From Actinomycetota bacterium (GTDB lineage Bacteria > Actinomycetota > Actinomycetes > Streptosporangiales > Streptosporangiaceae), in the NCBI GenBank assembly GCA_003140115.1, contig PLIQ01000282.1, positions 4,111 to 13,987 of the forward strand: a DNA stretch of 9,877 nt, in the 5' to 3' direction. Within the stretch, counting starts at the first letter, position 1; every line of letters begins with the position of its first letter. Made by a program: the position numbers and the translations under genes. Shown in pieces: positions 247-5,589 of this stretch. Below the pieces are notes generated by a model. It was given only the letters and a program-made list of their open reading frames with translations. It did not search any database and was not told the DNA's origin.

Positions 247-1593
247 ATGGCTCTACCCGACAGGTTGCCGCCTTCATCAGTTCGCGGGCGCGTGTTCCGG
301 TACGGGGACTGGGCCACCGATGCCGAGCGCGGGTTGCTGACCTGCGGGTATTCGCTGGACGGGCGGGAGTTCACCGAGCGGATCACGCTGCCGCCCGGGC
401 CGCGCTGGCGGACCGAAGCGGCCCGGGCCGCCGCGCGCCTGGTGTTCCTGCTGGCGGGAGTGTCCTACTACAAGACCGCCGCGCCGCCGGTCATCGACCT
501 GGGCCAGACCACGCTGACCGAGGCCGAGCTGGCCTTCCTGCGCGAGTTCTACCTGCAGGGCCTCGGCGAGTTCGCCTACCGCAACGCCTTGGACCTCACC
601 CCGCTGCGCTTCGAGGCACGCCGGTCCGACGCCCGGACTCCCCAGCCGCGGGAACCAGGGAGCCGGCCGCGAGCCCTGGTGCCGTTCGGCGGCGGGATCG
701 ACTCGATCGTGGTGGTGGAGCGGATCCGGCGGCTGGCCGATGCCGCCCTGTTCGTGGTGAGCAGGCCGGCCGACCGGTTCGCGGCGATCGAGGAACCGGC
801 CGCGGTCACCGGCCTGCCGGTGGTGCGGGCCGAGCGGGAGATCGACCCGCAGCTGCTGCGCTCGGCCGAACTGGGCTTCCTCAACGGGCACGTGCCGGTG
901 ACCGGGATCCTGTCCGCGATCGCGGTGCTCGCGGCGGTGCTCGAGGACCGGGACGCGGTCGTCATGTCCAACGAGTGGTCGGCGTCCATCCCGACGCTGC
1001 GGGACCAGGGCCGCCCGGTGAACCACCAGTACTCCAAGAGCGCCGACTTCGAGGCCGCCTTCCGCGGGGTGCTGGCGGGCAGCCCGGCCCCGATGCCGGA
1101 TTACTTCTCCTGGCTGCGGGACCGGACCGAGCTGTGGGTGGGCCGGGAGTTCGCGGCCCTGGAGCAGTACCACGGGTCGTTCCGTAGTTGCAATAAGGCG
1201 TTCTACACCGACCCGGCGCGCCGGCTCGATCACTGGTGCGGGCAGTGCGACAAGTGCTGCTTCATCGACCTGATCCTGGCGCCGTTCATGCCGGCCGAGG
1301 AGCTGCGGCGGATCTTCAGGCAGACCGGCGAGCCGCTGGAGGATCCGGGGCTGGCCGGGAAGTTCCGGGCCCTGCTCGGCGCGGGCGCCAAGCCGTTCGA
1401 GTGCGTCGGCGAGGTCAACGAGTGCCGGGCCGCGGTCCTGCTGGCGGCGCGGCGGGACGACCGGGCCGGCGCCGGCCTGCTGCAGGAGCTGGCCGCCGAG
1501 GTCGCCGGCTGGCCCGACGCCCCATCGGCCGCGGATGCGGCCGCCATGCTGCGGCCGGTCGCCGAGAACTTCATCCCCGCCGGGTACCGATGA
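247..1593 (+). CDS. murL: MurL: UDP-MurNAc-L-Ala-L-Glu epimerase (ATP-dependent)
   Basis: This is probably the cytoplasmic enzyme that inverts the terminal L-Glu of UDP-MurNAc-L-Ala-L-Glu to D-Glu, which in the Xanthomonas enzyme needs ATP and Mg2+. From ATG 247 it has 448 residues. An N-terminal alpha/beta region carries YYKTAAPPVIDLG at 74-86. A PP-loop-like GGGIDS at 148-153, in the context PFGGGIDSIVVVERI, suggests ATP binding. A conserved-looking SNEWSAS lies at 241-247, and a cysteine cluster C331-x2-C334-x2-C337-C338 sits within HWCGQCDKCCFIDL. Further Cys residues are at 386 and 393. The stop overlaps the murD2 start in an ATGA, which strongly supports the pairing and the call. An alternative ATG at 199 would add 16 residues but lacks a ribosome site. 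Such proteins are often labelled hypothetical. The family assignment is by recognition of the motifs and the neighbour, not by a search. Confidence 0.87.
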   Translation: MALPDRLPPSSVRGRVFRYGDWATDAERGLLTCGYSLDGREFTERITLPPGPRWRTEAARAAARLVFLLAGVSYYKTAAPPVIDLGQTTLTEAELAFLREFYLQGLGEFAYRNALDLTPLRFEARRSDARTPQPREPGSRPRALVPFGGGIDSIVVVERIRRLADAALFVVSRPADRFAAIEEPAAVTGLPVVRAEREIDPQLLRSAELGFLNGHVPVTGILSAIAVLAAVLEDRDAVVMSNEWSASIPTLRDQGRPVNHQYSKSADFEAAFRGVLAGSPAPMPDYFSWLRDRTELWVGREFAALEQYHGSFRSCNKAFYTDPARRLDHWCGQCDKCCFIDLILAPFMPAEELRRIFRQTGEPLEDPGLAGKFRALLGAGAKPFECVGEVNECRAAVLLAARRDDRAGAGLLQELAAEVAGWPDAPSAADAAAMLRPVAENFIPAGYR

Positions 1594-2915
1594 CCGATCC
1601 CCGCCCGAAACTCTCCTGGTCCGACCTGCCCGGTGCCCGGGTCGGCGTCTGGGGCCTGGGCCGCGAGGGCCACGCCAACCTGCGCAAGCTGCGGGCCCTG
1701 GGGGTCGAGCCCGTCCTGGTCGATGACCACCCGGGCGCCCCGGGCGTGCTCGCCACCGGCGAGGGCGGGCTGGCCGCACTGGAACGATGCGACGTGGTGG
1801 TCAAGACGCCGGGCCTGAGCCGGTACCGGCCCGAGGTGGCCCGGCTGTCCGGGCTGGGCATCCCGGTGGTCGGCGGCCTGGGCCTGTGGCTCGCCGAACG
1901 AGCCGGCGCGGACCTGGGGCGGGTCCTGTGCGTGACCGGCACCAAGGGCAAGAGCACCACCGCGTCGCTCACCGGGCATCTGCTCACCGGGCTGGGCTAC
2001 CGGTGCCTGGTCGGCGGCAATATCGGCGTCGTGCCCTACGACCCGGCCGAGGAGTCCGCGGCGGGCGACTTCGACTACTGGGTCATCGAGGTGTCCAGCT
2101 ACCAGGCCACCGACCTGCCGTGCACGCCGCCGGTGGGCGCGGTCACCTCGCTGCACCCGGACCACCTGGACTGGCACGGGGGAGTGGAGCAGTACTACCG
2201 GGACAAGCTGTCCATGTGCTCCCAGCCCGGGGCCGACCTGACCGTGGCCAACGGCGACAGTGACCTGCTGCGCCAGCACGCGGGCCTGCTCGGGCCCCGG
2301 GTGGAGTGGGTGTCGCAGGACGATGACCCGGACGCGGACTGGATGGCGCCGCTCGGGCTGCTCGGGCGGCACAACCGGCGCAACGCGCTGATCGCCCGGC
2401 GGTGCCTGACCGCCCTCGGCGTGCCCGGAGCCGCCGACGCCGCCGCCCTGCGCGTGGCCGCCGCCGGCTACCGCGGGCTGCCCAGCCGGCTCGCGCCGAT
2501 CGCGACGATCGCCGGGGTCACCTTCGTCGACGACAGCCTGTCCACCAACGTGCTGCCCACCCTGGCCGCGCTGGATGCGTTCCCGGCCAGGAGGATCGCG
2601 CTCATCGTGGGCGGTCACGACCGCGGCATCGACTACGCTCCGCTCGCGGCAGGCGTACTGGCCCGGGACGCGCCGACCCTCGTGCTGACCTTGCCGGATA
2701 ACGGCCCCCGCATCCGCGCCGAGATCCAACGGGCGGCCGCCGGGATCGAAGTGACCGACTGCTCCGGCCTGGACGCAGCCGTGGCGGCGGGCTTCGGCTG
2801 GGCCCGGCCCGACGGGGTGGTGCTGCTGTCTCCCGCCGCGCCGAGCTTCGGGCAATTCCGGGACTACCGCGACCGCAGTCAAGCCTTCGCCCACGCGGTG
2901 GGCCTGATTTCCTGA
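1590..2915 (+). CDS. murD2: MurD2: UDP-N-acetylmuramoyl-L-alanine--L-glutamate ligase
   Basis: Mur-ligase-family enzyme of 441 residues, predicted to join L-Glu (not D-Glu) to UDP-MurNAc-L-Ala with ATP, supplying the substrate of MurL. Domain 1 is a Rossmann-like UDP-binding fold with VWGLGREG at 20-27. Domain 2 has the ATP P-loop GTKGKST at 117-123, the acidic EVSSYQ at 167-172, HPDHLDWHG at 189-197, and GRHNRRN at 259-265. Domain 3 has DDSLSTN at 314-320, GGHDRGIDY at 341-349 and LSPAAPSFGQFRDY at 413-426. Compared with E. coli MurD from memory, Lys319 corresponds to Leu317, Lys348 to Arg345 and Phe422 to Tyr426, all near the D-Glu pocket, while Thr321 and Ser415 are kept as Thr319 and Ser419. 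The start ATG overlaps the murL stop, implying translational coupling. It is not MurT: there is no partner gatD and no zinc-ribbon cysteines. An ordinary MurD is the main alternative, but the adjacent murL argues against it. Confidence 0.87.
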   Translation: MTDPRPKLSWSDLPGARVGVWGLGREGHANLRKLRALGVEPVLVDDHPGAPGVLATGEGGLAALERCDVVVKTPGLSRYRPEVARLSGLGIPVVGGLGLWLAERAGADLGRVLCVTGTKGKSTTASLTGHLLTGLGYRCLVGGNIGVVPYDPAEESAAGDFDYWVIEVSSYQATDLPCTPPVGAVTSLHPDHLDWHGGVEQYYRDKLSMCSQPGADLTVANGDSDLLRQHAGLLGPRVEWVSQDDDPDADWMAPLGLLGRHNRRNALIARRCLTALGVPGAADAAALRVAAAGYRGLPSRLAPIATIAGVTFVDDSLSTNVLPTLAALDAFPARRIALIVGGHDRGIDYAPLAAGVLARDAPTLVLTLPDNGPRIRAEIQRAAAGIEVTDCSGLDAAVAAGFGWARPDGVVLLSPAAPSFGQFRDYRDRSQAFAHAVGLIS

Positions 2916-4973: not shown

Positions 4974-4979
4974 CCTTTC
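4974..4979 (-). promoter_or_regulatory. Ribosome binding site for the methyltransferase CTG start
   Basis: On the minus strand GAAAGG overlaps the TGA stop of the pentapeptide gene and sits 7 nt before CTG 4966. It is the only good purine run near the expected N-terminus, so it supports a non-canonical start. Confidence 0.45.
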
Positions 4980-5589
4980 AGTCGGCCACGGTGATGCCGA
5001 GGTGGCGGGCCAGGTACGGGGCCAGGGTCACGAGCTGGACGCTGTCGATGGTGACGCCGCGCAGTGACTCGTATCCGGCCGTGATGCCGAGCTGAGCGCC
5101 CCGCAGGTCCACCTCGGTGCAGGTGGCCTTCGTGAAGTTCGCGCCGGTCAGGGTGCACCCGGCGAAGCTGACCCGCAGCAGAGTCGCGCTGGCGAAGTCC
5201 ACGTCGCGCAGCACGCAGTCCTCGAAGGCCACGTCGGTAAATTTTGCGCTGCGGAAGTTCACCGAGTCGAGCTTGCCGTCGCGGAACGTGACGCGGCGCA
5301 GCGCGGCCGAGAACGCCTGCACCCCGGCCAGCGCGCAGCCGGCCAGGGTCGAGTCCTGCCAGCCGGTTTCGGTCAGGTCGGTAGCCACGAACCGGGTGTC
5401 GCGCACGCAGGTGTCGGTGAACCGGCTCTTGCGCAGCCGGCCGCCGCCAAATGACACACCCAGGAACGAACAGTCCAGGAAGTGACAGCCGCCCGCGGCG
5501 GCCTCGTCGAATGTGGCGTCGGCGAAGGTCAGGCCCTCGTAGTCCTCCTCCGGCTCCAGATTGCCCTCGAACCGGGTGCGCTCCGCCAT
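4978..5589 (-). CDS. Pentapeptide-repeat protein (right-handed quadrilateral beta-helix)
   Basis: 203 residues from ATG 5589. The centre position of the A(D/N)Lxx-type repeat recurs every five residues without a break from Phe22 to Leu167: F22, F27, A32, F37, F42, F47, L52, F57 and so on, then F102, L107, F112, F117, F122, L127, F132, L137, F142, L147, F152, C157, L162, L167. That is about 30 pentapeptides, or roughly seven beta-helix coils; only Ala32, Ala92 and Cys157 deviate clearly. A non-repeat C-terminal tail, ESLRGVTIDSVQLVTLAPYL (174-193) and onward, looks helical and is typical of actinobacterial members. The size is close to MfpA/Qnr-type gyrase-binding proteins, but this fold is shared by many proteins of unknown role, so quinolone or toxin protection is only a possibility. 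It lies 39 nt downstream of the LuxR regulator and directly upstream of the methyltransferase. Confidence 0.88.
   Translation of the reverse strand: MAERTRFEGNLEPEEDYEGLTFADATFDEAAAGGCHFLDCSFLGVSFGGGRLRKSRFTDTCVRDTRFVATDLTETGWQDSTLAGCALAGVQAFSAALRRVTFRDGKLDSVNFRSAKFTDVAFEDCVLRDVDFASATLLRVSFAGCTLTGANFTKATCTEVDLRGAQLGITAGYESLRGVTIDSVQLVTLAPYLARHLGITVAD

Follow-up and report, generated by a model that had tools for sequence, protein, structure and literature searches.

A stretch of 9,877 nucleotides from an actinobacterium of the Streptosporangiaceae (GenBank assembly GCA_003140115.1, contig PLIQ01000282.1, positions 4,111 to 13,987 of the forward strand; hereafter the window) carries a pair of overlapping genes, murL and murD2, which we read, at a probability of roughly 0.85, as a MurL/MurD2 route and most likely the only source of D-glutamate (D-Glu) for the wall of this cell. 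The basis for this reading is full-length homology, the coupling of the two genes, the exclusion of the racemase MurI and the absence of the murD of the division and cell wall (dcw) cluster in relatives, and a structural model of MurL that resembles QueC and QatC. By analogy, the window pair would perform the same reactions as the pair of Xanthomonas oryzae, for which both were demonstrated: L-Glu is added to UDP-MurNAc-L-Ala and then epimerised, so that D-Glu arises on the wall precursor. In vitro confirmation is also reported for orthologues of Micromonospora and Salinispora in PMC8788868 and PMC5808125, which list Micromonospora, Actinoplanes, Verrucosispora and Salinispora as the actinobacteria with the pair. 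The pathway is already known, and what is new here is a member from a clade that is not among the actinobacterial genera listed by the 2021 review. The features of the pair are the following:

247..1593, plus strand: murL open reading frame (ORF), ATG at 247, TGA at 1591-1593, 448 aa, matching NF041275
682..705, plus strand: PP-loop-like motif PFGGGIDS of MurL (residues 146-153), with G150, D152 and S153 invariant in 59 aligned rows
1189..1257, plus strand: four-Cys cluster of MurL, C315-x15-C331-xx-C334-xx-C337, the four Cys invariant in 59 aligned rows
1390..1410, plus strand: KPFECVG motif of MurL (residues 382-388), with P383, E385, C386, V387 and G388 invariant in 59 rows
1590..1593, plus strand: four-base overlap ATGA of the murL stop and the murD2 start, read in the sequence
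1590..2915, plus strand: murD2 ORF, UDP-MurNAc-L-Ala:glutamate ligase of MurD2 type, ATG at 1590, stop at 2915, 441 aa
1938..1961, plus strand: Mur ligase P-loop GTKGKSTT of MurD2 (residues 117-124), from the alignment
2160..2162, plus strand: Asp191 of MurD2, aligned with Glu197 of X. oryzae MurD2 and Asp182 of E. coli MurD
2622..2624, plus strand: Arg345 of MurD2, aligned with Arg358 of X. oryzae MurD2 and Lys348 of E. coli MurD
2841..2849, plus strand: Pro418-Ser-Phe420 of MurD2, aligned with Pro433 and Phe435 of X. oryzae MurD2

The murL-murD2 pair and its relatives

A preliminary description of this DNA had noticed a PP-loop-like protein with a cluster of cysteines whose stop overlaps the start of a MurD-like ligase, and these traits are borne out by the ATGA overlap, the PFGGGIDS motif and the four invariant Cys. 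The same description took the two genes for a MurL/MurD2 pair of the Xanthomonas type, an identification that full-length homology, gene order and phyletic pattern uphold. NCBIfam model NF041275 (MurL) matches residues 15-445 of the 448 of the window protein (E 1.1e-100, 337.3 bits), a full-length homology to characterised MurL that makes it a member of the broad MurL family, and alignment to the proteins of Xanthomonas sacchari gave 40-43% identity for MurL and 45% for MurD2; the identity to the MurL of Longispora is about 40%. A public protein is identical to the window MurL over 448 aa (P0001), the nearest one with an organism name comes from a Streptosporangiaceae metagenome-assembled genome (MAG; P0033, 87% identity), and the nearest named genome locus among the best 80 belongs to another MAG of this family (L005, 76%). 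In the MurL tree the window clusters with Streptosporangiaceae loci (Shimodaira-Hasegawa-like approximate likelihood ratio test, SH-aLRT, 99), and a branch with SH-aLRT 97 separates its actinobacterial clade from Micromonosporaceae and Xanthomonadales. The ORF list also holds an in-frame upstream ATG at 199, a possible longer start of murL, and one homologue, P0117, is a MurL of 732 aa carrying an additional PF02578 domain.

The adjoining ligase scores above the cut-off of the MurD model TIGR01087 (247.7 versus 211.95 bits), and its alignment shows the catalytic residues of Mur ligases intact (E167, H192, K206 and R300). The junction of both genes reads CCGATGACC, and the four-base overlap suggests translational coupling. 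Moreover, a genome scan with the MurL alignment gave at least 593 pattern matches, at least 577 of them encoding a relative, of which the best 80 loci were kept. In 73 of these 80 a MurD homologue overlaps the MurL stop or starts no more than 300 bases from it, and the adjacency is therefore not due to chance. A single locus (L047) has its MurD homologue 431 bases from the MurL stop, another one (L040) shows the reversed gene order, and no MurD match was found in five loci, where the fetched stretch ends at most 512 bases past the MurL match. Among 396 genomes sampled across the phylum, 27 were positive for MurL.

Some occurrences of MurL lie in other settings. MurL homologues are encoded on two ant-associated Pseudonocardia plasmids (L002, 5983-7392; L003, 5965-7359), in both cases with no annotated murD next to them; the genes that follow are for a very large protein, with a WD40-repeat annotation in L003, and a sigma factor. 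A MurL followed by a MurD-like ORF (L004, 3881-6539) was found in MT836755, a record labelled as human-gut phage. This was the sole match among phage records, and a phage origin of MurL was discarded: judged by eye, the entry, from human faeces, resembles a bacterial fragment because its ORFs look bacterial and the record is unannotated. MurL/MurD2 may occur in gut bacteria. In the window itself, a pentapeptide-repeat protein is encoded at 4978-5589 on the minus strand, and in 6 of 44 loci (L013, L151, L153, L154, L155 and L159) a homologue 58-66% identical to it adjoins MurD2 in convergent orientation, many of these 44 being short or from repeated genomes; its gene may be a conserved companion of murL and murD2.

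MurI and the dcw murD in relatives

The co-occurrence of the pair with MurI was read in 200 genomes of the family to which the nearest relative (genome G001) belongs. MurL (E<=1e-20) was detected in 18 of them and MurI (E<=1e-15) in 180, with both proteins in none and neither in two, a mutual exclusion with a Fisher p of 1e-23 when kinship is ignored. The curated MurI cut-off is exceeded in 118 of the 180 MurI-positive genomes, the other 62 having weaker matches. All 18 MurL-positive members have a single MurD (E<=1e-35), which lies next to MurL or to a fragment of MurL. In this line, MurI above the cut-off was found in none of 105 MurL/MurD2 genomes tested; the control reached it in 8 of 14 well-known genomes. 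These 105 are the sum, repeats removed, of sets of 37, 14, 5 and 49 genomes, the last one made up of 26 chosen by MurL and 23 Micromonosporaceae chosen by MurD2. Weak matches to MurI appeared in 5 of the 37 genomes at E<=0.001 and in 8 of the 49, with a maximum of 26.2 bits; for the sets of 14 and 5, matches weaker than 1e-15 are not listed. A D-amino-acid transaminase (D-AAT) was also considered as a source of D-Glu and set aside: none of 25 genomes has one above the cut-off of 277.45 bits, which only 1 of 14 control genomes reached, and the matches below it, present in all 25, are confounded by other class-IV aminotransferases.

The old place of murD, between mraY and ftsW, could be scored in 10 of the 18 MurL-positive members (in five the stretch is without ftsW, and in three without an mraY match at E<=1e-60). 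No murD match was found there in any of the ten; mraY and ftsW are nearly adjacent in five of them, and in others a gap lies between the two genes, that of G001 containing long ORFs on the minus strand, none of which matches MurD. HGW-Actinobacteria-2 (G010) carries a truncated MurD relic in the slot, and murD occupies it in all four of the MurL-negative members inspected, two of them with MurI, the others being genomes G159 and G205. With respect to the same region, in Candidatus Frankia californiensis (L120/L121) the interval from ftsW to mraY contains the MurL-MurD2 pair, encoded on the opposite strand, three MurL-positive genomes (L205, L206 and L207) have an additional mraY, which shares about 70% identity with the one in G001 and lies in a stretch with no other dcw match, and the MurL-negative G205 has two mraY matches. 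The data do not support one common origin of the pair within the family, since MurL-positive genomes form two groups on the MraY tree, one of three genomes placed beside G205 (89/96) with few MurL-negative rows included.

A different picture was found in 13 genomes of the Kineosporiaceae. Seven of them have MurI and one MurD (360-382 bits), and the other six, with no MurI at E<=1e-15, have MurL, MurD2 (250-261 bits) and a second full-length MurD-like ORF (217-235 bits), located in all six between mraY and ftsW (L116, 7677-6247, minus strand; L224-L228). This second protein has lost, again in all six, Asn138, Glu157, His183, Lys198 and Lys319 (E. coli numbering), and the Thr/Ser of its P-loop is changed to Ala; the MurDs of the seven MurI-positive sisters keep all six catalytic residues. 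The dead gene does not seem to be decaying, because it is free of stops and its pairwise ratios of nonsynonymous to synonymous substitution (dN/dS) of 0.10-0.40 (6 genes, 15 pairs) indicate purifying selection; the values are 0.05-0.44 for canonical MurDs (21 pairs) and 0.07-0.23 for MurD2 (15 pairs). Among 120 homologues listed out of 7513 matches, 40 lack two or more of Glu157, His183 and Lys198 (36 lack all three) and an identical signature of eight residues is common to 23 of these 40, whereas the remaining 80 keep the three residues. These sequence patterns suggest a retained non-catalytic role of the dead dcw MurD of Kineosporia. A literature search of titles and abstracts found no report of a catalytically inactive or pseudoenzyme MurD, in Kineosporia or the dcw cluster included.

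These data bear on two other explanations of the pair. The preliminary description had raised the possibility of a backup or stage-specific route, for example in sporulation, beside a kept murI and murD, and the relatives tested lend it no support (MurI over its cut-off in 0 of 105; dcw murD absent in 10 of 10 scorable). Such a role beside intact MurI and dcw MurD is very improbable because MurL and MurI, at the thresholds applied, never occur together in the 200 family genomes, a single MurD lies beside MurL and the old slot holds no murD; nor do MurI and MurD2 coincide in the 13 Kineosporiaceae. No direct support for it was found, and the MurD-like dcw gene that the MurL-positive Kineosporiaceae keep, which might speak for it, has lost the catalytic residues in all six. 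Slightly less probable still is that the pair works for a specialised metabolite or for wall decoration instead of bulk peptidoglycan, as the solitary homologues on the Pseudonocardia plasmids could suggest, given that the MurD beside MurL is the sole one in 18 of 18 relatives and that family scans revealed no biosynthetic cluster in the window. The MurL/MurD2 route as the source of wall D-Glu remains the preferred reading.

Glutamate specificity of the ligase and fold of MurL

According to PMC8788868, the changes E197D and R358K each shift the stereospecificity of X. oryzae MurD2 and together convert it into a D-Glu ligase, and the MurD of Streptococcus mutans also has Arg at the Arg358 position, so that this residue is not specific for MurD2. 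The window ligase has Arg at this position (Arg345), as do all 110 readable sequences of 119 loci (37 of 40 on the window side of the MurL tree and 73 of 79 on the other, the rest being gaps). At the Glu197 position, however, the window side has Asp in 39 of 40 loci and one gap, in contrast with the other side, with Glu in 71 of 79, Asp in four and gaps in four. Sides were set from the MurL tree for the loci present in it and otherwise by similarity, and three genes are counted twice (L156 = L007, L164 = L066, L188 = L191). The 28 loci of a Micromonosporaceae search gave Glu in 23, Asp in one (Longispora), gaps in two and two canonical-looking MurDs with Asp/Lys. With Asp191 in place of Glu, the window ligase is not assigned to the Glu/Arg type. 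The verified actinobacterial MurD2 enzymes probably carry Glu at this position, and the Asp/Arg type may lie outside them.

As a consequence of Asp191, the use of L-Glu by the window MurD2 is deduced from its context and not from residue 191; it is still the better inference because the relatives are without MurI and without D-AAT above the cut-off. The alternative, in which the ligase drifted back to D-Glu or to a dual specificity and MurL became a salvage or proofreading enzyme acting on wrongly added L-Glu, finds its argument in this Asp/Glu split and in the effect of E197D, and we regard it as improbable. No readable sequence has a residue other than Arg at the second specificity site, a supply of D-Glu for such a ligase is not apparent in the 18 MurL-positive family members, and Asp is also present in Longispora, of the Micromonosporaceae, a family with other MurL/MurD2 pairs reported as verified. 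With a clade that has Asp and keeps Arg, which residues make MurD2 take L-Glu becomes testable.

Regarding MurL, the reviews PMC8788868 and PMC5808125 describe it as having no known conserved domains. The window protein gave no Pfam family at E<=0.01, PF06508 (QueC family) included, and no match in a PDB sequence search at E<=1. Its structural model (predicted local distance difference test, pLDDT, 94.3) has as its best VIA-align match QatC, a QueC-like anti-phage protein, over 317 residues, followed by QueC, a structural similarity that points to the QueC/QatC fold. In a weak profile alignment the PFGGGIDS loop corresponds to the SGGQDS loop of E. coli QueC, and the four Cys to the Cys motif of that protein. 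The motifs given for the QueC family in PMC13329287 are an SGGxDS loop and a C(x)8CxxCxxC zinc motif, to which GGGIDS and C-x15-CxxCxxC are only related. Because there is no Pfam match, MurL is not assigned to the QueC family and only the fold is considered as shared; the main texts of PMC13329287 and PMC13279940 do not mention MurL. A defence role, as the fold of QatC might suggest, was rejected, PADLOC giving 0 families at E<=1 for the window MurL, MurD2 and two other MurLs.

Such a fold, seen in a model, fits with the adenylation of a carboxylate, and an adenylate mechanism for MurL is the hypothesis of the X. oryzae authors, as given in PMC8788868 and PMC5808125. The enzyme would adenylate with ATP the α-carboxylate of the precursor-bound L-Glu, releasing AMP and loosening the α proton. 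Cys386, a candidate acid/base by way of a guess, or another invariant residue might then act as acid/base, and the Cys cluster is a probable metal site. The mechanism becomes testable in this way, since the fold points to an adenylate route with definable residues.

Contrary evidence and comparison with known systems

Several observations weigh against a MurL/MurD2 route as the sole source of D-Glu. The presence or absence of murI and of a second murD was read in relatives, and for the source genome of the window their absence is a prediction. G159 and G205, without MurL and with no MurI at E<=1e-15, keep the dcw murD, and either these assemblies are incomplete or another source of D-Glu exists. 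In this regard, the best of the weak racemase matches, a partial one of 74 bits, is found in a MurL-positive Saccharibacteria MAG (G030), many MurL-positive genomes have a class-IV aminotransferase of up to 132.7 bits, under half of the D-AAT cut-off, and DapF is able to make D-Glu in Chlamydia, as stated in PMC5885031. With respect to the proteins, Asp191 is the residue of E. coli MurD at the very site where substitution altered the X. oryzae enzyme, and the profile match between MurL and QueC has an E of 0.0017 and a probability of 15.5%. Finally, the window MurL, with 337 bits, does not reach the curated cut-off of 700 of NF041275, a lineage-limited model to which it is not assigned and whose cut-off was set for Xanthomonadales; a Xanthomonas protein (L065) scores 792 and that of Longispora (L066) 400.

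We give about even odds to a wider proposal, namely that MurL is a branch of the QueC/QatC fold not recognised so far, working as an epimerase via an acyl-adenylate, and that the displaced dcw MurD of Kineosporia is a conserved pseudoenzyme with a fixed signature of inactivity and, by implication, a scaffold role. If true, the replacement of MurI and MurD by MurL and MurD2 makes the catalysis of MurD dispensable, but not necessarily its body, and a non-catalytic function of MurD could be tested in Kineosporia, which keeps a dead copy after the activity apparently moved elsewhere. The wider value of the system lies in this dead copy, in the Asp/Arg type of ligase, in the fold of MurL and in the clean swap of MurI for MurL within one actinobacterial family, which also suggests in which actinobacteria MurI inhibitors should have no effect.

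Among known systems, QueC, QatC and Cap9 (PF06508) differ from MurL in their SGGxDS loop and in the 8 residues that follow the first Cys, versus GGGxDS and 15, and QueC is published to make a nitrile, whereas the product of MurL keeps a free carboxylate. The canonical route of MurI and dcw MurD has in common with the window pair the catalytic residues of MurD, also present in MurD2, but the MurL/MurD2 route sets the stereochemistry after ligation, and the MurL-positive relatives are without detected MurI and without dcw murD. The closest system is that of X. oryzae (XOO_1319/XOO_1320), with the same two genes in the same order and full-length homology. MurI is reported as absent there and was not found either in the MurL-positive relatives of the window, and the window MurD2 keeps the equivalents of Arg358, Pro433 and Phe435, differing from the X. 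oryzae enzyme in Asp191, where the latter has Glu197.
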